DNA of 8,839 nucleotides from NCBI GenBank assembly GCA_001799195.1, contig MGSU01000166.1, positions 1 through 8,839 of the forward strand, read 5' to 3'. The stretch's first letter is position 1. The number at the start of each line of letters is the position of its first letter. The translations under genes and the position numbers were made by a program. The notes under the pieces are model-generated. The model saw only the letters and a program-made list of their open reading frames with translations, was not told where the DNA came from and made no database searches. The stretch comes from Deltaproteobacteria bacterium RIFOXYA12_FULL_61_11 (GTDB lineage: Bacteria > Bdellovibrionota_F > JAHFAK01 > YA12-FULL-61-11). This document shows positions 166-8,839 of this stretch, in pieces.

Positions 166-1389
166 ATGAACTTCGTCAACCCCTTCATCGCGCTCCTACC
201 TGATGCGGCGCGCGTATCCGACCTGACCGCGGTCCCCTATGATGTGGTCACCGAAACCGAGGTCCGCGCAATCGTCGAACGCAACCCGCTGAGTTTCCTT
301 CGCATGACGCGCCCCGAGGTCAATTTCCCTATCGGCATCGATCCCCACTCCGAGCAGGTATACCACAAGGCCCGCGAGGTCTTCCAAGCCTCCCTCGCCG
401 CCGACCACTTCACCCGTGATACCGCTCCGGCCGTCTACGTCTATTCCCAATCCATCTCCGATCATAGTCAGCGCGGCCTCGTCTGTTGCTACCCGGTCGA
501 CCTGTACGACGAGGGGCTCATCGTCAAACACGAGAACACGCGCGCCGACAAGGAAAAAGACCGCACCGACCACCTCTTGGCTGTGTCCTGCCATCCCGGA
601 CCGCTCTTCCTCGCCTATCGCGACATTGCGGGGATCGATGCCATCCTGGAACGCGAAACCAAGCGCCCGCCTCTCTACGACTTGACCTCCGAGGACGGGG
701 TTTCTCATCAGGTCTGGAAGATCTCCAACCCCGAGGTCCTTGCAGAAATACGCGAGGGCTTTTCCTCCATACCCAACTTGTACATTGCCGACGGCCATCA
801 CCGCGCAGCGGCCGCCAGCAGGGCCCGAGCCACGCTCCGAGCGGCCAACCCCCGACACAACGGCAGCGAGGACTACAATTTCTCGCTGGGGGTGATGTTC
901 CCGGCCGACCAGTTGCGCATCCTCCCCTACAACCGCGTGATCGTGCGCCTGCCCAGCGATGCCTCGACCTTCCTTAAGGAACTATCGAGCAAATTCAATA
1001 TCTTCGAGACGGAACAACCCCGCCCTCGAGAGAAGGGCCGGGTGAACCTCTACTTGGGCGGGAAGTGGTGGCAATGCAAGCTCGAACCCGTGCTCGGTTC
1101 GGTGCTCGATCAAATGGACGTCAACCAACTCCAGCAGCAGATCCTCCAACCTTTCCTGGGGATCACCAACCCTCGCACCGACAAGAACATCGACTTCATC
1201 GGCGGGACCGACAGCATCGACAAGATCGAGCGCCGGGTGCAGAGCGGCGAAGCCCAGATGGGCATCAGCCTCTACCCGACCCAGATGGACGAGTTTCTCG
1301 CCGTTTCCGACGCCCGGCAACTGATGCCGCCGAAATCGACCTGGTTCGAACCCAAACTGCGCTCCGGCTTCTTCATCCATACCTTCTGA
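166..1389 (+). CDS. DUF1015 family protein
   Basis: A 407-residue cytoplasmic protein of the DUF1015 family, with no signal peptide or membrane segment. The N-terminus has the family pattern of a short hydrophobic start, an Asp/Ala-rich stretch and a PYDVV motif, followed by NPLSFL and a Pro-Glu turn. The hallmark ADGHHR is at residues 208-213, and the C-terminal signature MPPKSTWFEPKL starts at residue 387, just before the end. The length is normal for the family, so the gene looks complete. The DGHHR motif resembles the ParB/sulfiredoxin fold, which includes free-serine kinases such as SerK. In some bacteria DUF1015 genes lie near serine biosynthesis genes (from memory). The biochemical role is not established. 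Here it leads a xylose gene pair, 19 nt before xylB and probably co-transcribed, which hints at a phosphotransfer or regulatory role but proves nothing. The family assignment is firm; the function is unknown. Confidence 0.9.
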   Translation: MNFVNPFIALLPDAARVSDLTAVPYDVVTETEVRAIVERNPLSFLRMTRPEVNFPIGIDPHSEQVYHKAREVFQASLAADHFTRDTAPAVYVYSQSISDHSQRGLVCCYPVDLYDEGLIVKHENTRADKEKDRTDHLLAVSCHPGPLFLAYRDIAGIDAILERETKRPPLYDLTSEDGVSHQVWKISNPEVLAEIREGFSSIPNLYIADGHHRAAAASRARATLRAANPRHNGSEDYNFSLGVMFPADQLRILPYNRVIVRLPSDASTFLKELSSKFNIFETEQPRPREKGRVNLYLGGKWWQCKLEPVLGSVLDQMDVNQLQQQILQPFLGITNPRTDKNIDFIGGTDSIDKIERRVQSGEAQMGISLYPTQMDEFLAVSDARQLMPPKSTWFEPKLRSGFFIHTF

Positions 1390-1408: not shown

Positions 1409-2917
1409 ATGCCCGCCTCGCCGCTTCGCGACCGCTTTCTCGGGATCGACCTCGGCAGCTCGTCGATCAAGGTGTGTCTCTTCGCTGCCGACCGACGGAC
1501 AGTATTGGGAGAAGCCACCCTGCCGACCGGCGGCCTGGAGATTATCAGTCCCCGTCCGGGTTGGGCCGAGCAAGCCCCAGAGGAGTGGTGGAGGCAGGTC
1601 AAGGCCGCGATCTCCTCGCTGCGCAGACAACACGGCGCCGATTTGCAGCGGCTGGGCGGTATCGGCATCGCGTATCAGATGCACGGGCTGGTCTTGGTCG
1701 ATCGGGCGGGTACTCCCTTGCGGCGGGCGATTCTCTGGTGCGACGGTCGGGCCGTCCCCCTGGCCGAAGAACTCGCTGCGGAACTCCCCGATCGGCCGAC
1801 TTGGCTGCGTCGGCACGGCAATCTCCCCGGCAATTTCACCGCCACGAGAATAGCGTGGGTCGCTCGGCACGAGCCTCGGCTCCTGGACCAGGCATGGAAG
1901 GCCCTCTTGCCGGGGGATTGGCTCGCCTTGGCCTTGACCGGCGAAGCAGGCACGACGTCCTCCGGACTCTCCGAAGCCATCCTGTGGGACTATCCCGGCA
2001 ACTGCCTGTCGGCCGAAGCGCTCGCCCTGTTCGGACTTCCCAAGGAGATCCTCCCCTCCCTGGTCCCGACGTTCGGCCTCCAAGGCCGGCTCACCCCTGC
2101 TGTCGCACAAGAACTCGAGCTTCCCGTAGGCGTGCCGATCACCTATCGCGCCGGCGACCAACCGAACCAGGCTCTCGCCCTGGGGGTACTGGAACCAGGG
2201 CAGGTGGCGGCAGGCTGCGGCACCTCGGGGGTCGTCTTCGCCGTGACCGAACACCTGTCCTCTGCCGCGAGCGAGCAGGTCAATGTCTTCCTGCACGTCG
2301 GCCATGCTCCGGAGGCCCCTCGCCTCGGACTGCTGTTGTGCCTCTCGGGAGCCGGCAGTCTCCAGGCTTGGCTGCGTCGGCTCCTGGGTTCCTCCCTCGA
2401 CGGACACGCAGCCCTGGATCGTTTGGCTGCCGGGGTCCCCTTCGGCAGCGACGGCTTGCTGGTCCTCCCCTTCGGCAACGGTGCCGAACGCATCCTCTCC
2501 AACCGCGACCCCGGCGCCTCGTTCCATGGACTGCGTTTCTCCCGCCACGGAGTGCCTCATTTGGCGAGGGCGGCCCAAGAAGGCATCGCCCTGGCCCTCG
2601 ACCACGGTCTCGAAGCGATGCGTCGGCGGGGTTGTGAACCTGCTGCCTTGACCGCGAGCAGGACCGGGCTCTTCCGCAGTCCGGTCTTCGCCTCCACCCT
2701 CACAACTCTGACCGGTCTTCCCATCACCCTCGTCGAGAGCGACGGTGCCCAGGGAGCAGCCCGGGCGGCTGCCTTCGGAGCCGGGTACTACCCGAGTCTG
2801 AAGGAAGCCACCCAGGGTTTACGCGAACAGGAGAGGTACGAACCCCGCGTGGAGCTGGCCGAGGAGGTGAACGACCTCCGTCAGCGTTGGCAAGAACTGG
2901 TAAACAGGATCCCTTGA
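1409..2917 (+). CDS. xylB: Xylulokinase (FGGY carbohydrate kinase)
   Basis: Phosphorylates D-xylulose with ATP to D-xylulose 5-phosphate in the cytoplasm, feeding the pentose phosphate pathway. The 502-residue length is normal for FGGY kinases. The first actin-like domain opens with the phosphate loop FLGIDLGSSSIKV (Asp14). The xylulokinase sugar-binding motif YQMHG follows (MHG at 91-93), then ILWCDGR. The catalytic Asp is D250 in YRAGDQPN, followed by the second-domain nucleotide loop GCGTSGVVFAV. The C-terminal SDGAQGAARAAAFGAGY is the usual adenosine-binding end. MHG together with LWxDGR separates xylulokinase from glycerol, ribulose and rhamnulose kinases. The YRAGDQPN and HAPEAPRLGLLLC segments place it in the clade seen in Bacteroidota-like bacteria rather than with E. 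coli XylB. The ATG has only a weak GGAA 12 nt upstream, so translation probably depends on ribosomes leaving the DUF1015 gene 19 nt earlier. The next gene encodes the matching isomerase. Confidence 0.93.
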   Translation: MPASPLRDRFLGIDLGSSSIKVCLFAADRRTVLGEATLPTGGLEIISPRPGWAEQAPEEWWRQVKAAISSLRRQHGADLQRLGGIGIAYQMHGLVLVDRAGTPLRRAILWCDGRAVPLAEELAAELPDRPTWLRRHGNLPGNFTATRIAWVARHEPRLLDQAWKALLPGDWLALALTGEAGTTSSGLSEAILWDYPGNCLSAEALALFGLPKEILPSLVPTFGLQGRLTPAVAQELELPVGVPITYRAGDQPNQALALGVLEPGQVAAGCGTSGVVFAVTEHLSSAASEQVNVFLHVGHAPEAPRLGLLLCLSGAGSLQAWLRRLLGSSLDGHAALDRLAAGVPFGSDGLLVLPFGNGAERILSNRDPGASFHGLRFSRHGVPHLARAAQEGIALALDHGLEAMRRRGCEPAALTASRTGLFRSPVFASTLTTLTGLPITLVESDGAQGAARAAAFGAGYYPSLKEATQGLREQERYEPRVELAEEVNDLRQRWQELVNRIP

Positions 2918-2927
2918 TCCCAAGGAG
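2907..2927 (+). promoter_or_regulatory. xylB-xylA junction: Shine-Dalgarno site within two competing hairpins
   Basis: AAGGAG at 2922-2927 lies 7 nt before the ATG at 2935 and fixes the isomerase start. An earlier in-frame start at 2887 would lie inside xylB. Two small hairpins compete here: GGATC (2907-2911) with GATCC (2916-2920), and CCTTG (2912-2916) with CAAGG (2921-2925). The second would cover part of the ribosome binding site. Both include the xylB stop at 2915-2917, so a terminating ribosome would open them. The pairing is exact, but function is inferred. Confidence 0.5.
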
Positions 2928-2934
2928 CCTCACG

Positions 2935-4074
2935 ATGACAAAGTCCCCTTCCTACCACAGCATCTGCCGCTGGACCTTCCACGCCGGCCGCGGCGGTTTC
3001 GTTCCAGCGGACATCAGACCGGCCTGGACCGGTGATCGCCTGGACTCAGCGGGTTTCGTCCGCTTGGTCGCCGAGAAGCTGAGGCCTCGCCTACCCTCCC
3101 ACGTCGTACTCGGCGTTGAACTGCACTACGACACCGAGATCCACGAAGCCAATGCGGCCGAACTGGCCTCGGCCTTGAGCGCTACGGGGTTGCATCTCGC
3201 CATGATCACCCCGGGAGCCCACTCCCATTTCGCTTATGGCGGACTGGCCTCGCTCGACCCACGGGAGTTGGAGCAATGCAGGAACCTCGGCCGTAAAACG
3301 ATCGAACTCGCCTATGGCCCGTTACGATCCGCGTGGCACCCGGACCCTGCCCTGGCTCCGTCCCTGGTGATTTGGAACGGCTCGTTCGGCTATGACCTCC
3401 CCAGCATCGCGCTGCGCGAGATGTACCAGACGCTGAAACGCTCGCTGCTGGACCTCTCCCGATACGAACGAGCCCTTGGGGGCGACCTCTTCCTCGCCCT
3501 CGAACCCAAACCCAACGAAGGTCACCCGGCTATGCTCCTCCCGACCGTGGCCAGCGCCCTGGTCCTCTGGCACCAACTCGCCTCCGAGCACGGCCTCGAC
3601 CTCTCCCGCAGAGGTCTGAACATGGAACTCGGACACTCGGAGATGCTGGGGCTCGATCCGGTGTTCGACCTGGTCGAGCAACTCGAGGAAGCGCGGGTCA
3701 TGCACCTGCACCTCAATTCCCAGGGAGGAGCCGATGGGTTGAGCCTTGGCGGAGCAGGCAAGTTCGACCTGGACTACGGCTTCCGGCCGAGCGCTTCCGG
3801 CTTGGCCCTGTGCGGTCTCCTCGACAAAGCAGGATACCGCCGCTGGCTGGGCCACGACCTGCAACCGCGCTCCTATGACGACGAAAACCAGGCCCTCGAC
3901 CGCGTGGTGCGCGCGATCCTCGGATACGAAGCCTGCGCCGCGGCGGCCGCCGACCTGAACGAAGAGGCGCTGCTCGCGCTCCTGGCCGCACGAGAGACCG
4001 CCATGGCCGAGGATCTGATCAGGTCCTCACTGCACGACGCCTGGAAAATCTTCGACCGCTGGTATCGGTGTTGA
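2935..4074 (+). CDS. xylA: Xylose isomerase family TIM-barrel protein, class I-like with an altered metal site
   Basis: A 379-residue cytoplasmic protein that aligns by eye along its length with actinobacterial xylose isomerases (about 388 residues). Those enzymes interconvert D-xylose and D-xylulose using two divalent metals. By comparison with Streptomyces XylA, the active site is largely kept: W13 (W16), F22 (F26), H64 in ELHYD (H54), W147 in VIWNG (W137), E190 and K192 in LEPKPNE (E181, K183), E231 and H234 in MELGH (E217, H220), D278 and D280 in KFDLDY (D255, D257) and D308 in GHDLQP (D287). The metal-1 ligand D245, in the family motif HIDLNGQ, is H259 here (HLHLNSQ). The loop from there to D278 is about 9 residues longer and rich in Gly. 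Position directly after xylB supports a role in xylose or a similar ketose pathway. The altered metal site could mean a different metal or a different aldose, so the symbol is tentative. The start is set by AAGGAG 7 nt upstream. Confidence 0.82.
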   Translation: MTKSPSYHSICRWTFHAGRGGFVPADIRPAWTGDRLDSAGFVRLVAEKLRPRLPSHVVLGVELHYDTEIHEANAAELASALSATGLHLAMITPGAHSHFAYGGLASLDPRELEQCRNLGRKTIELAYGPLRSAWHPDPALAPSLVIWNGSFGYDLPSIALREMYQTLKRSLLDLSRYERALGGDLFLALEPKPNEGHPAMLLPTVASALVLWHQLASEHGLDLSRRGLNMELGHSEMLGLDPVFDLVEQLEEARVMHLHLNSQGGADGLSLGGAGKFDLDYGFRPSASGLALCGLLDKAGYRRWLGHDLQPRSYDDENQALDRVVRAILGYEACAAAAADLNEEALLALLAARETAMAEDLIRSSLHDAWKIFDRWYRC

Positions 4075-4095
4075 TCCAACGAAATCACCAACACC
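4067..4095 (+). terminator. Possible weak hairpin at the end of the xylose genes
   Basis: GGTGTTG (4067-4073) can pair exactly with CAACACC (4089-4095) over a 15-nt loop. The stem overlaps the isomerase stop codon and has no T-run after it, so it is not a classical intrinsic terminator. It may stabilise the 3' end or be chance. Confidence 0.2.
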
Positions 4096-4099
4096 AGGG

Positions 4100-4128
4100 T
4101 GGTCATCGCCCGAACTTCATGCTATCCT
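4100..4128 (+). promoter_or_regulatory. Candidate extended -10 promoter for the envelope genes
   Basis: TGGTCA (4100-4105, 4/6 to the -35 consensus) is followed after 17 nt by TATCCT (4123-4128, 4/6). A TG one base before the -10 gives the extended form TGCTATCCT. Transcription would start near 4135, about 50 nt before the lipoprotein ATG. It lies in the 113-nt gap between xylA and the lipoprotein gene, the largest gap between genes in the window, which supports a separate transcription unit. Confidence 0.4.
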
Positions 4129-4187
4129 TCGACAGTTCGCCTGAGCAAACATCACGGCGAGAACCTGAAAGCGCGGAGATACCGGTC

Positions 4188-4829
4188 ATGCCCACAGCCC
4201 TCGTGTCGTCCTTCCTCCTGCTCGCGCTCTTCACCGGTCTGGGTTGCACCGAAGAGAAAGACAAGACCGGGGGGACCACGCCGAGCACCTCCGCGGACCA
4301 AGATAAAAAAGATGCTTCTGCCGACGGCCAAGCCGCGGTCGATTACCTGACCCCGATCAGCGAAAAATGGGAAACCCTTCGCCAAGAGAAGGGGTTGACC
4401 GATAAGCTGGCCGATATCAACCTCCGCGACTGGAACGAGCAACAGAAGAAGATCTCGGAACTCGCTGGAGGCAAACCCACGGTCCTCGTCTTCGTCGGTC
4501 CGAGTTGTCCTTACAGCAAGAAATACATGGACATGCTCAAGTCCAAGATGGATGACCTCGAGAAGGACCTGGCCTTCGTCTTCGTAGCCCTCGGTCCTGC
4601 CGACGAGGCCAAGTTCTACCTGGAGAAGATCAAATACCCCTGGTCCTTCCTCGTCGACCCCCAGGAAATCTACGCCGCGCAGTACGGCTACGTGGGCGAG
4701 GTCCCCTACTCGGTCTTCCTGACCTCGGACGGCACCATTGTGGGCGTCCTGGCCGGATACGTCGCCGAGAACGAACAGGCCTTCCTGCGGCTGTTCGAAC
4801 AGCTCGCGGCCTATCCCGAAACCGACTGA
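4188..4829 (+). CDS. Probable thioredoxin-fold lipoprotein with a single-cysteine CPYS motif
   Basis: A 213-residue exported protein. The N-terminus is a short hydrophobic signal ending in FTGLGC, so Cys20 is the likely lipidation site. The Gly at position -3 makes this a weak lipobox, and plain secretion remains possible. A charged Lys/Asp/Ser/Thr linker (about 21-50) follows, then a thioredoxin-like domain (about 75-213). TVLVFVGPSCPYS carries the active-site motif C107-P-Y-S110, with the second cysteine of the usual CxxC replaced by Ser. The cis-proline is P173 in EVPYSVFL, and SDGTIVGVLAGY is the typical last strand pair. No other cysteine is present after Cys20. A one-cysteine Trx fold suggests a mixed-disulfide, peroxidase-like or isomerase role rather than simple two-electron reduction. 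The start ATG has GGAG 9 nt upstream; an in-frame start at 4068 would add about 40 residues before the signal and was not used. The first barrel gene follows 7 nt after the stop, so the three envelope genes are probably one operon. Confidence 0.75.
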   Translation: MPTALVSSFLLLALFTGLGCTEEKDKTGGTTPSTSADQDKKDASADGQAAVDYLTPISEKWETLRQEKGLTDKLADINLRDWNEQQKKISELAGGKPTVLVFVGPSCPYSKKYMDMLKSKMDDLEKDLAFVFVALGPADEAKFYLEKIKYPWSFLVDPQEIYAAQYGYVGEVPYSVFLTSDGTIVGVLAGYVAENEQAFLRLFEQLAAYPETD

Positions 4830-4836
4830 GCCCTCC

Positions 4837-6450
4837 TTGCCGGCGGCCATCCTCGTTCGCAGGCGGACGCTCATCGTCTTGGTAGTCCTCCTGTTCGGCC
4901 TTCCCTCCGAGCCGCGAGCCTATGACCTCCACGCCGTGTATACCGAGGACTGCAAGGTCCAGGTCGGCTTCTTCCTCGCCGTGGATGCGGTGAACGTCAT
5001 CCTGCTCGACCTCGAAGGACGAGCCCGTTCCATTCCCCGGGAACAGCTCCGGAGTCTGGCTCTCTTCTCGGTCCTGACCAACCCTCTCGCGGCCGTGGTC
5101 CTCGATCCCCTCGTCCTCGAACATCTACGGCTGGTCCACGTCGGCGGTTCCGATACTCCGCTCTTCACCGGTTTCGCGGTCAAGTTCCTCGAGGACCTGG
5201 TCATTTTCCACGACCTCCAGGGTGCTTCTCACGTCTTCGACATGCACGACCTCACGGCCCTCCGTCCCCTAGACCTGGAACCCGGCAGGGTCGTGCGGGC
5301 CGAGAGCGTCAGCGAGCCGGACCTCGATCTCGGCCTTGGGCTCGACCAGTGTTCCGAACACCCCCCGCAGCGCGGCAGTAGCCCGCCGACCAGGTTAATC
5401 TCCGACCGTATCCGTATCAACGGGTACCTCGACGAGTTGGCCGAGGCCTTCGAACGCCTGAAGAGCTACGAGGAACGGACCTATCTCTACGCCCGACCCT
5501 TCCTGTTCCCCGAACGCACCCGATTGGTCCTGCTGCTGCGCAACGATCTGGCAGAGATCTTCCAGAGCGGGGTCCTGCCCGTGGCCTTCGAATGGTCCAC
5601 CGGTACCCCCTACCGTTTCCAGAGCCACACGACCATCGGCGCTCAAATCCCCTCCTGGCTGCCCACGCTGACCCCGGTCTTCGCGCTCTCCTCAGAGGTA
5701 AAATCGCACCTTTTCAATGCCTTATTTATCGGTAACGTCGCCGCCTTGTCCGCGGGCACCTCGCTCTTCGCCGAAGGCCCCTTCGGTGTGGTTTTGGACC
5801 GTGCCTATGCGATCGAACCGGGATTCAACTACCTCGCCATGATGGGGGCCGATTACCTCTCGTGGTCGGTATCGCTCGGCACCCTGTTCGCGACCTATGG
5901 TCTCAAGACCCCCACCCTGCAACGCGAGGTGCTCGGCAGCGAGGTCTCGCCGGTCCTCCGCCTGATGCGCACCACGGCCAGGACCAGGCTGCGCCTGCTC
6001 TATGGTTACAGCGACCTCGACCGCACCGGGACCGAACTTGGGGATTACTTATTGTTGGACAGCTCCGGTGAATCCATGACCGACGCGGCCCTCGAGGCAG
6101 AAGCCTCGCCCCCCCCCGGAACCTCCTCCCCGATCCCGAACCCGACCAGCTTCTCGCTCCGTTGCGACGTCCTCCGCTTGGGCCTGGATCTGGACCTCGA
6201 CGACAGTATTCAGCTCACCCTGGACGGTATCCTCGTACACGGCCGCTACCGCGAGCGCGGTTCCGCCTCTGATGTTGATTTCCGCTTCACCGACCTCCTA
6301 CCGCGACTGACCGTCCGGCACCAGTTCGGGCACTACGTTTCTCTGCGCGGTTTCCTCCACCTGCCCTGGCGCTATCACGACGTGGCCGGCCAGGACCGGG
6401 GTTGGAACCACGAATTCGGCTACGGAGGGCACTTTGAGCTGCTGTTCTAG
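4837..6450 (+). CDS. Predicted outer-membrane beta-barrel protein, paralogue 1, with N-terminal small-beta domain
   Basis: A 537-residue protein of no family I recognise. The TTG at 4837 is chosen because it gives a clean signal peptide: RRR at 8-10, hydrophobic core to about 22, likely cleavage after PRA28. It also starts 7 nt after the lipoprotein stop; the ribosome site is weak, so the start is uncertain. The mature part opens with HAVYTEDCKVQVG (Cys39) and a compact beta pattern ending LEGRARSIPREQL (59-71). A linker around Cys172 (QCSEHPPQRGSS) leads to a helical stretch with ERLKSYEE (206-213). The rest is a run of alternating polar and hydrophobic strands, with a Pro/Ser loop near 424-437 whose PPP is encoded by nine C in a row, ending in FELLF. 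A terminal Phe after alternating residues is the usual outer-membrane barrel signal. The downstream gene is a full-length paralogue. The cargo or ligand is unknown. Export and barrel fold are inferred from pattern only. Confidence 0.65.
   Translation: MPAAILVRRRTLIVLVVLLFGLPSEPRAYDLHAVYTEDCKVQVGFFLAVDAVNVILLDLEGRARSIPREQLRSLALFSVLTNPLAAVVLDPLVLEHLRLVHVGGSDTPLFTGFAVKFLEDLVIFHDLQGASHVFDMHDLTALRPLDLEPGRVVRAESVSEPDLDLGLGLDQCSEHPPQRGSSPPTRLISDRIRINGYLDELAEAFERLKSYEERTYLYARPFLFPERTRLVLLLRNDLAEIFQSGVLPVAFEWSTGTPYRFQSHTTIGAQIPSWLPTLTPVFALSSEVKSHLFNALFIGNVAALSAGTSLFAEGPFGVVLDRAYAIEPGFNYLAMMGADYLSWSVSLGTLFATYGLKTPTLQREVLGSEVSPVLRLMRTTARTRLRLLYGYSDLDRTGTELGDYLLLDSSGESMTDAALEAEASPPPGTSSPIPNPTSFSLRCDVLRLGLDLDLDDSIQLTLDGILVHGRYRERGSASDVDFRFTDLLPRLTVRHQFGHYVSLRGFLHLPWRYHDVAGQDRGWNHEFGYGGHFELLF
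6109..6117 (+). repeat. Homopolymeric C9 tract inside paralogue 1
   Basis: Nine consecutive C encode three Pro codons (residues 425-427) in a Pro/Ser loop of the predicted barrel. The reading frame is intact across it, because similarity to the downstream paralogue continues to the C-terminus. Confidence 0.9.
6424..6429 (+). promoter_or_regulatory. Shine-Dalgarno site for a TTG start inside the preceding gene
   Basis: GGAGGG within the last codons of paralogue 1 lies 4 nt before TTG at 6434. It supports that unusual start and the 17-nt overlap of the two reading frames. The next in-frame ATG at 6514 would remove the signal peptide. Confidence 0.7.
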
Positions 6451-8074
6451 GCCGAGCCTCGCCGCCGCGTTGGCCGTGGTCTGCCTGCTTTTCACAACCG
6501 CATCCACCCAGGCCATGAACGTGCAGGCGGTCTACACGGCCTCCTGTCAACGGCAGGTCGGAGTGCTGTTGGAGGTCGGTCGGCACCACCTCACCATGCT
6601 CACCCTCAGCGGTCGCATCCTCTCCTTACCCCGGCACGAGCTGATCTACATGGTCGAATACCCCCTCGACAGCGTTCCCTTTGAGGGGGTCAGGGGCGGC
6701 GACCCCAGCCGGGTGGTCGACATCGTCACGAGACAAGGGACCAACCTGTTGCCGTTGGTCAAGGGCTGGCCGATCGACTACTCCCGCGACGATATTTCAT
6801 TCCTCAGCCTCGACGGCGCCGAGGTCGTGGTCCACCGCGAACACATCTTCGGCCTCGAGTTCTCGGCCGCGCCGACCGAACTGCTTTTCCCGGCAACCAA
6901 GCGGCGTATCCTGGAGTTCGTCCATCCCTATGTCTTCGCGTCCTGTGCGCAGGAACCGCCCCCCCTCGGCTCGTCCGAGGTCTCGAGCGACCCCTCGCAA
7001 CCGGAAGCAGCGACCATCGTCGAGCTTGAACGCAGGAAGATCTTCCCCCAACAATTCTTCCCCGATCCGGTGGCCATCAAGCGTGAACTCGACCGCCGGC
7101 TCGAAGGCTATGAACGCTTGCGCATCTACGAACGCTCCCAGAAGTTCTATCCCGTACCTCAGGTGTACAAGAATCTGACGTCGCTGGGTCTCTGGCTCTC
7201 CGCGGGGAGCCGCTACGGGGCCTCGGGCTCGCGCAGCAACAACCTCAACCCCATGTTGGTCAATGAATACTCCAGCGGCCCCTTCGGGTATCAGCACCGC
7301 CTGGTTTCCGGCAACGGTCCGATGCCCTACTCCCTCCACACCGAGATCCAGTCCCAGCTCTACTACCGTTTCAAGGCCGACTACTTCCACCTCTCGGCCA
7401 TGCTCGACCCCAACCTGTTCCTGGTCGGCGACAAGTATGCCTGGACCAAGGAAGACCTCGACCCCATCGATGAACGCTTCAACGAAATGCTCCTCGTCGA
7501 GAGCGGCCTAGACTTCGGCCCCCTCTCCCTCGAGTGGTACCTGATCGACCCCCTCAACACCGCGGTGCGGCAGGAGGAGGACTTCTTGGGGCTCGAGATG
7601 AACCTGATGCGCTTCGGTCTCGTCTACCACCATTACCTGGTACGAGTCTCCCTGGTCGCGGGAAGGACCTTCGGTTTCCTCAACTCCCCCCAGCACAGCT
7701 ATGTCGAGTCCGAGGGATCCTCACCAGCAGAACTCGTCACCACTCCGTCGCTGGACGTGGTGCGCCTCAACGTGGATCTGACCGGTTCCGACAGTTATCT
7801 GCTCAACCTCAGCACCATCGTCCGACGCTTCGGCTGCCGCAGCGACCAGATCACCTGGACCGAGGAGGGCTCCCACTTGGAAGAAGGCTTGCGCTATCGC
7901 AGTCTGGCCGTCGAACCGGCACTGCACGGCTCGTGGCGTTTCGGCACGCGGTACGAGCTAGGAGGGTTCCTCTCGACGGAACTCCGCAGGATCGAACACG
8001 GCACCGGTTCCCTGGAGGATACCCGACATCGCCTGGTTCCCAAGCTCGGAGTCCTGGCCTCGCTGACCTTCTGA
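6434..8074 (+). CDS. Predicted outer-membrane beta-barrel protein, paralogue 2, with N-terminal small-beta domain
   Basis: A 546-residue, full-length diverged paralogue of the preceding gene, also of no family I recognise. The TTG start gives a signal peptide with likely cleavage after STQA27. Shared features, in order, are: VQAVYTASCQRQVG (Cys38); a beta pattern ending LSGRILSLPRHEL (58-70); a linker SCAQEPPPLGSS around Cys171; a helical segment with ERLRIYER (227-234); and long alternating strands that include SSGPFGYQ (AEGPFGVV in paralogue 1) and DVVRLNVDL (DVLRLGLDL in paralogue 1). It ends in LGVLASLTF, with the terminal Phe expected of outer-membrane barrels. The mature protein has one further cysteine, C468, with no counterpart at the same place in paralogue 1. 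The overlap with paralogue 1 implies coupled translation and perhaps a fixed ratio of the two proteins. A porin, a secretion channel or a surface structural protein are all possible; the sequence does not choose between them. Confidence 0.7.
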   Translation: MSCCSRPSLAAALAVVCLLFTTASTQAMNVQAVYTASCQRQVGVLLEVGRHHLTMLTLSGRILSLPRHELIYMVEYPLDSVPFEGVRGGDPSRVVDIVTRQGTNLLPLVKGWPIDYSRDDISFLSLDGAEVVVHREHIFGLEFSAAPTELLFPATKRRILEFVHPYVFASCAQEPPPLGSSEVSSDPSQPEAATIVELERRKIFPQQFFPDPVAIKRELDRRLEGYERLRIYERSQKFYPVPQVYKNLTSLGLWLSAGSRYGASGSRSNNLNPMLVNEYSSGPFGYQHRLVSGNGPMPYSLHTEIQSQLYYRFKADYFHLSAMLDPNLFLVGDKYAWTKEDLDPIDERFNEMLLVESGLDFGPLSLEWYLIDPLNTAVRQEEDFLGLEMNLMRFGLVYHHYLVRVSLVAGRTFGFLNSPQHSYVESEGSSPAELVTTPSLDVVRLNVDLTGSDSYLLNLSTIVRRFGCRSDQITWTEEGSHLEEGLRYRSLAVEPALHGSWRFGTRYELGGFLSTELRRIEHGTGSLEDTRHRLVPKLGVLASLTF

Positions 8075-8095
8075 ACGCTCCGAGCAGAGCGCTTC
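8073..8095. terminator. Possible bidirectional hairpin between convergent genes
   Basis: GAACGCTC (8073-8080) pairs with GAGCGCTTC (8087-8095) over a 6-nt loop, with a one-base bulge. It lies between the paralogue 2 stop and the dinB stop, where a shared terminator is expected. No T-run follows on either strand, so the call is weak. Confidence 0.3.
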
Positions 8096-8110
8096 GGTCT
8101 GGCCTTGGCC

Positions 8111-8839
8111 TCAGAAATCGAAACAGAGCTGGCCCGGTGCTCCCACGTCGGAAAGGTTCGTGACCGACAGGCCGAGCAAGCGGACCGGTGGGAAAGGAGC
8201 AAGGAGCGTACGGTCCAGAACCGCCCGAGCGCATTGGTACAAACTCTCTGCCCGGTTGGTGGGCACCAGGGTCGTGCCGCTGCGGGTCTGCAGGGTGAAA
8301 TCGTGGTACTTGAGCTTGATCGTCACCGTGCGGCCGACCATGCCCCGGCGGCGCAGCGCGGCCGCTACCTCCTCGGCCTCTTCGACAAGCACGGCATACA
8401 GGAACGGCAGCTCTGTGGTGTCTCGCTCGAAGGTACGCTCGGACCCTCGACTCTTGGGTACCCACTCGGACACCACCGCACGATCATCGATACCTCTGGC
8501 CAGGTCGAAGAGAAAACCCCCGAACTTGCCCAGCTCTCGCTGGAGTTGCAGCCGGGACAACCGGCGCAGGTCGGCCACCGTACGGACACCCAGCTCTCCC
8601 AAGTGCCGGCCGGTGACCGTTCCGACTCCCCACAGGCAGGCGACCGGCAAGGGGTCGAGGAACTCCTGCACCTTCGAAGGATGGACCACGGTGAGACCAT
8701 CCGGCTTGCGTCGCTCCGAAGCGATCTTGGCCACCAATTTGGAAGGTCCGACCCCGGCCGAAGCGGTCAGACCGGTGCGACGGACGATCTCGGCCTTGAT
8801 CCAGCGCGCCGCTGTCACTCCCAACTCGAAGCCGAGCCG
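8111..8839 (-). CDS. dinB: DNA polymerase IV (Y family), 3' part; N-terminus beyond the window
   Basis: Error-prone translesion DNA polymerase. The visible 242 residues are the C-terminal part, and the frame stays open to the window edge, so the first 100 or more residues with the fingers and the catalytic acidic residues are outside. Visible in order: the end of the palm (TGLTASAGVGPSKLVAKIASE, first 19 residues diagnostic, followed by RRKPDG), the thumb helix-hairpin-helix (LWGVGTVTGRHLGELGVRT), the linker with KSRGSERTFERD, and the little finger with TVTIKLKYHDFTLQTRS and VRLLGLSVTNL. The protein ends in GQLCFDF, where QLCFDF resembles the hexameric beta-clamp-binding motif. It is convergent with the envelope operon, its stop lying 36 nt from the paralogue 2 stop, so it is not part of that unit. 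Its promoter, and any SOS box, is outside the window. Confidence 0.93.
   Translation of the reverse strand, partial: RLGFELGVTAARWIKAEIVRRTGLTASAGVGPSKLVAKIASERRKPDGLTVVHPSKVQEFLDPLPVACLWGVGTVTGRHLGELGVRTVADLRRLSRLQLQRELGKFGGFLFDLARGIDDRAVVSEWVPKSRGSERTFERDTTELPFLYAVLVEEAEEVAAALRRRGMVGRTVTIKLKYHDFTLQTRSGTTLVPTNRAESLYQCARAVLDRTLLAPFPPVRLLGLSVTNLSDVGAPGQLCFDF

Follow-up and report, generated by a model that had tools for sequence, protein, structure and literature searches.

Two adjacent genes of Deltaproteobacteria bacterium RIFOXYA12_FULL_61_11, b1 and b2, encode paralogous proteins predicted to be outer-membrane barrels, and by sequence they constitute a genuine, unnamed protein family. In this family the two genes lie in a fixed order with overlapping starts, the duplication that separated them is ancient, and each protein keeps a pair of cysteines. 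The family is sparse and centred on the SAR324 phylum. We consider it marginally probable that b1 and b2 form an obligate two-subunit outer-membrane channel with disulfide-stapled periplasmic domains, a reading in which complex, channel activity and substrate are inferred.

The locus and its genes

The window, that is, the whole stretch of 8,839 nucleotides analysed here, is the entire contig C166 of a draft genome of 4.64 Mb (87% complete). An earlier note on this DNA had described a module of three genes, for a thiol lipoprotein and two barrels, with a gap of 7 nt after the first gene and an overlap of 17 nt between the other two. All three open reading frames, which are co-directional, and both junctions were recovered exactly as described (Table 1). 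The note had also supposed that the genes have a promoter of their own. We found 0 sigma-70-like sites in 4000-8200; the 113 nt between the thiol-protein gene and the gene before it would leave room for one.

The rest of the window holds genes of other kinds. At 166-1389 (+) lies a protein of unknown function that Pfam assigns very strongly to DUF1015 (5.8e-90). It is followed at 1409-4074 (+) by an FGGY sugar kinase, nearest to xylulokinase but under the XylB cut-off, and an adjoining xylose-isomerase-like TIM-barrel protein, which together suggest a pentose-type sugar step. On the other strand, at 8114-8824 (-), a Y-family DNA polymerase of the DinB type is truncated by the contig end.

Table 1. 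Features of the b1/b2 locus, in window positions; structural regions are predicted.
Feature	Positions	Strand	Remarks
Thiol-protein gene	4188..4829	+	Thioredoxin fold, CPYS, C107; exported, possibly lipoprotein (C20); Pfam AhpC-TSA 5e-11, Thioredoxin_2 5e-8
Gap, thiol-protein gene to b1	4830..4836	+	7 nt
b1 gene	4837..6450	+	TTG start, 537 aa; orthologues in ~24 loci; clade support 100/100
b1 periplasmic region	4921..5277	+	Two small five-stranded domains, residues 29-80 and 98-147; AlphaFold2 strands
b1 Cys39 codon	4951..4953	+	Kept in 15/15 aligned members covering the site
b1 Cys172 codon	5350..5352	+	Kept in 16/16 aligned members covering the site
b1 helix	5407..5487	+	Residues 191-217; conserved heptad-like hydrophobic pattern
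b1 C-terminal beta-barrel	5521..6447	+	~14 strands, residues 229-537; CymA Z 14.5, Omp33 Z 14.5
Probable b2 ribosome-binding site	6424..6429	+	GGAGGG, inside b1 end
b1/b2 overlap	6434..6450	+	17 nt, with b2 TTG start; position shared by most relatives
b2 gene	6434..8074	+	546 aa; predicted outer-membrane barrel protein, b1 paralogue
b2 periplasmic region	6515..6886	+	Two small five-stranded domains, residues 28-80 and 93-151
b2 Cys38 codon	6545..6547	+	Kept in 19/19 aligned members covering the site
b2 Cys171 codon	6944..6946	+	Kept in 20/20 aligned members
b2 helix	7067..7147	+	Residues 212-238; conserved heptad-like pattern
b2 C-terminal beta-barrel	7178..8071	+	~14 strands, residues 249-546; CymA Z 14.7, TodX/CymD/FadL Z 13-14, OmpG Z 13.8

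An unnamed family kept in pairs

That the two barrel proteins are paralogues, as the earlier note had proposed, was borne out by an identity of 28% between b1 and b2 and by profile-profile comparison (E 2.6e-35 over 494 columns). Each has a signal peptide, a predicted barrel of ~14 strands and a C-terminal Phe. The claim that they stand outside known families also held in every library searched: b1 and b2 of the window gave 0 matches in Pfam and NCBIfam at E<=1, none in PHROGs and nothing credible in the PDB by sequence. Their aligned relatives matched curated porin and barrel families at chance level only, and none of 39 family members matched the Pfam FadL/TodX model (Toluene_X) at E<=0.1. 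The pair was not described in the limited set of papers searched.

Relatives emerged only through profiles, a scan of contigs with the b2 sequence alone having found none. An initial profile of b1 and b2 searched against 386 genomes detected just two strong carriers, which belong to a single family in a different phylum. Its other matches were weak (E 0.03-0.08) and were put down to chance, and none of them recurred with a stronger profile, which detected 3 carriers in a broad sample of 386, the window's own genome included. Scanning the contigs of named genomes with the b2 alignment yielded 19 loci, mostly of SAR324 (Candidatus Lambdaproteobacteria); two came from Bdellovibrionota and one from a Myxococcales bin, and a few lay in bins with vague labels. 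A search of plasmids returned no relative. By phylum, matches were present in 16/52 SAR324 genomes, 7/290 Bdellovibrionota genomes and 1/282 sampled genomes of a Myxococcota phylum, this last being the Myxococcales bin itself; among the two species sampled from the window's own phylum, the genes were missing outside this genome. From these carrier counts the family is sparse and SAR324 is its centre. SAR324 is reported to be abundant in the ocean worldwide (PMC9031357). One locus (L071) lies on a contig labelled Marinimicrobia, yet its b1 and b2 differ very little from those of SAR324 (branch lengths ~0.01-0.03); the label is probably a binning error.

Wherever a locus was long enough to tell, b1 immediately preceded b2 in the same orientation, and in most cases the two open reading frames overlapped. 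Besides the window, 24 paired loci were collected (14 in the SAR324 phylum and 10 elsewhere), a few of them cut by contig ends; the remaining single fragments sit at contig edges, and no intact solo b1 or b2 was seen in the sampled genomes. One genome holds a second pair. A tree of 39 sequences separated all b1 from all b2 into two clades with 100/100 support, indicating that the duplication is ancient and predates the spread of the family. Within these clades, b1 and b2 of the window each grouped nearest to the Myxococcales protein, with modest support. The fixed side-by-side order suggests joint function, trees and gene order being evidence of co-inheritance and not of contact.

The overlap itself is more than a chance feature, judging from the junctions compared. 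In ~17/23 of them a TTG lies exactly at the 17-nt overlap position, and a GGAGG-type ribosome site within the last codons of b1 precedes it in the window and in loci L079, L110 and L111. The b1 C-terminus is itself conserved (xE[FL][IVL][LF]-stop), so that conservation of the TTG is partly a by-product of protein sequence. Many SAR324 loci also have an ATG farther upstream at which b2 could start instead. For both reasons we give the overlapping TTG modest weight.

The upstream thiol protein is a lineage-specific neighbour

The product of the first gene was described in the earlier note as a probable lipoprotein with a one-cysteine thioredoxin fold. The fold is supported by a Pfam AhpC-TSA match of 43 bits, where the curated cut-off is 26, which places the protein in the Thioredoxin/AhpC-TSA superfamily. 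It holds exactly two cysteines, C20 in the lipobox-like FTGLGC and C107 in CPYS; there is no CXXC redox pair, and CPYS leaves one active thiol. The lipoprotein call is uncertain: FTGLGC (residues 15-20) fits a loose lipobox, but with the start at 4188 the signal-peptide n-region ahead of C20 holds no Lys or Arg. The genome also encodes a paralogue (G000 contig C97:3542-3940; 35% identity) in which CPYC is intact, and the single thiol therefore looks like a derived state.

No homologue of this protein was detected at E<=0.001 anywhere in the 18 other pair-bearing genomes, and none adjoins b1/b2 in any relative locus retrieved. Although the search had BLAST sensitivity and dealt with draft genomes, we judge an absence in 18/18 to be clear. 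The three-gene module was accordingly rejected as a conserved system: of the assembly proposed earlier, the two barrel genes stand as one conserved unit, and the thiol protein is a neighbour outside it. That this protein would be a dedicated partner of both barrels thus appears very improbable. The 7-nt gap to b1 in this genome and the conserved barrel cysteines, a possible substrate for such a protein, speak for a partnership; its absence from relatives and the paralogue elsewhere in its own genome speak against it. The thiol protein could at most aid in forming or repairing barrel disulfides in this organism.

Other neighbours are no more constant. Elsewhere the pair lies beside genes for CoaE, a histidine phosphatase, GNAT, EamA, UvrA, DHFR, AcrB, FIST and others, all unrelated housekeeping or local genes, and in an all-against-all comparison of neighbours no family recurred beside the pair beyond close relatives. 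Three Bdellovibrionota have a lipoprotein of ~440 aa directly upstream of b1 (L066:5073-6455, L079:4616-5923 and L111:158-1510), larger than the window's thiol protein and unrelated to it. Those of L079 and L111 are related (1.8e-9) and that of L066 only marginally; they gave no Pfam match and are absent from the other pair loci.

Predicted architecture and a possible two-subunit channel

The barrel call of the earlier note was supported by AlphaFold2 predictions of each protein alone, which gave a barrel of ~14 strands for both (b2, mean pLDDT 82.1 and pTM 0.71 from 20 aligned sequences; b1, mean pLDDT 79.5 and a pTM of only 0.59 from 19). The predicted folds share one architecture, namely a signal helix, two five-stranded units, a helix of 27 residues and ~14 strands running to the C-terminal Phe. 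The strand number is predicted from the AlphaFold2 secondary structure together with matches to 14-stranded chains. In both models the five-strand pattern appears twice; hhalign profile comparison aligned the first and second units in register, weakly, and the periplasmic part gave weak Pfam KOWx_SPT5 matches (0.009-0.017) and no PDB match by sequence. In the proposed model these small domains would be SH3/Sm-like.

Outside the barrel, three features stand out in alignments of ~20 sequences, which come mostly from one phylum, SAR324 supplying the majority of loci. Most mature family proteins contain two or three cysteines in total, and the conserved pair flanks the periplasmic domains, making it likely that a disulfide closes this region. 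The helix before the barrel has, at an equivalent place in b1 and b2, the 4-3-4-3 hydrophobic spacing found in coiled coils. Finally, extracellular loops 1 to 3 of b2, assigned from the model topology, have conservation values of 0.78, 0.74 and 0.64, compared with 0.50-0.58 for the late strands. Extracellular loops more conserved than strands are unusual for general porins, and the pattern points to function or contact at these loops if the modelled topology is right.

The nearest solved folds (CymA, TodX/CymD/FadL, Omp33 and OmpG, Z 12-15) cover the barrel only, and such middling matches do not show function. The top match of both barrels was CymA, the 14-stranded cyclodextrin channel of Klebsiella oxytoca (b2, Z 14.7, 4.2 A over 243 residues; b1, Z 14.5), at an identity of just 5-8%; unlike b1 and b2 as modelled, CymA has no N-terminal periplasmic domains, paired paralogue or conserved cysteine pair. 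The FadL/TodX/TbuX channels for hydrophobic compounds have a 14-stranded barrel such as is predicted for b1 and b2 (Z 12-14), without any Pfam match of b1/b2 to link them, and have an N-terminal hatch where b1 and b2 are predicted to have tandem small barrels. OmpG, a monomeric 14-stranded porin (Z 13.8 for b2), is encoded by a single gene and lacks a periplasmic domain. In DcaP and FapF (Z ~10.5) a helix stands directly ahead of the barrel, as predicted for b1 and b2; these are homotrimers in which a periplasmic coiled coil precedes the barrel, their strand number differs, and unlike b1/b2 as modelled they have neither tandem small barrels nor a paired paralogue. In their working, b1 and b2 may resemble 14-stranded porins, while by sequence they belong to none of the porin families searched.

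Two related subunits within one outer-membrane porin have been described for the OmpC/OmpF heterotrimeric osmoporins (PMC5056734). This is the theme of the unit proposed here, though the sequences are unrelated. The ompC and ompF genes are unlinked and their subunits also make homotrimers; to our knowledge, linked obligate pairs of different porin subunits are rare in Gram-negative bacteria. Barrel channels as such are known. In the limited literature searched, we did not find a description of paralogous barrels that are always paired and carry small barrels in tandem on the periplasmic side.

In the mechanism that we propose, b1 and b2 would be translated in fixed order from their overlapping genes, ribosomes that end b1 going on to begin b2. 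Both proteins would be exported by means of their signal peptides and inserted in the outer membrane, where disulfides between the conserved cysteines would staple the periplasmic domains of each subunit. The coiled-coil-like helices would then bring b1 and b2 together, most likely as a hetero-oligomer, and this assembly would act as a channel for a small solute. Because no transporter or enzyme partner recurs beside the pair, no substrate can be named.

The same genes might instead be two independent porins left in tandem by an old duplication, each forming homo-oligomeric channels, with the operon merely setting their ratio. Tandem paralogues are common, and each protein has a complete barrel and the same set of domains and could act alone. 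We nevertheless regard this as unlikely, though a serious contender: although b1 and b2 are ~28% identical, order and pairing remain strict in the several phyla sampled, neither gene was seen intact on its own, the genes overlap, and the extra copy in one genome is again a pair. It is rather improbable, in our estimate, that the pair serves to build the envelope or to export material (as a scaffold, a secretion pore or an outer-membrane assembly factor, for example), with partner proteins bound by its small periplasmic domains. The large periplasmic region (~190 residues), conserved as much as the barrel, would suit such a role, as would the conservation of the first three b2 loops over the late strands and the lack of a recurring transporter gene nearby; against it, no secretion or assembly gene recurs beside the pair either, and few genomes carry the family even in the phyla where it occurs, which argues that the pair is not core machinery.

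The two-subunit channel is therefore the reading we retain for b1 and b2. More tentatively, the pair may represent an undescribed class of obligate two-subunit channels. In these, two barrels that diverged from an old duplication, each with tandem small-barrel domains in the periplasm closed by a disulfide, would form a hetero-oligomer for some solute in SAR324 and scattered relatives. A fixed two-gene barrel family that is unnamed in all searched libraries offers a concrete target for work on structure and uptake, and its small size of two genes, together with the conserved cysteine pair, makes the question of b1/b2 assembly testable.
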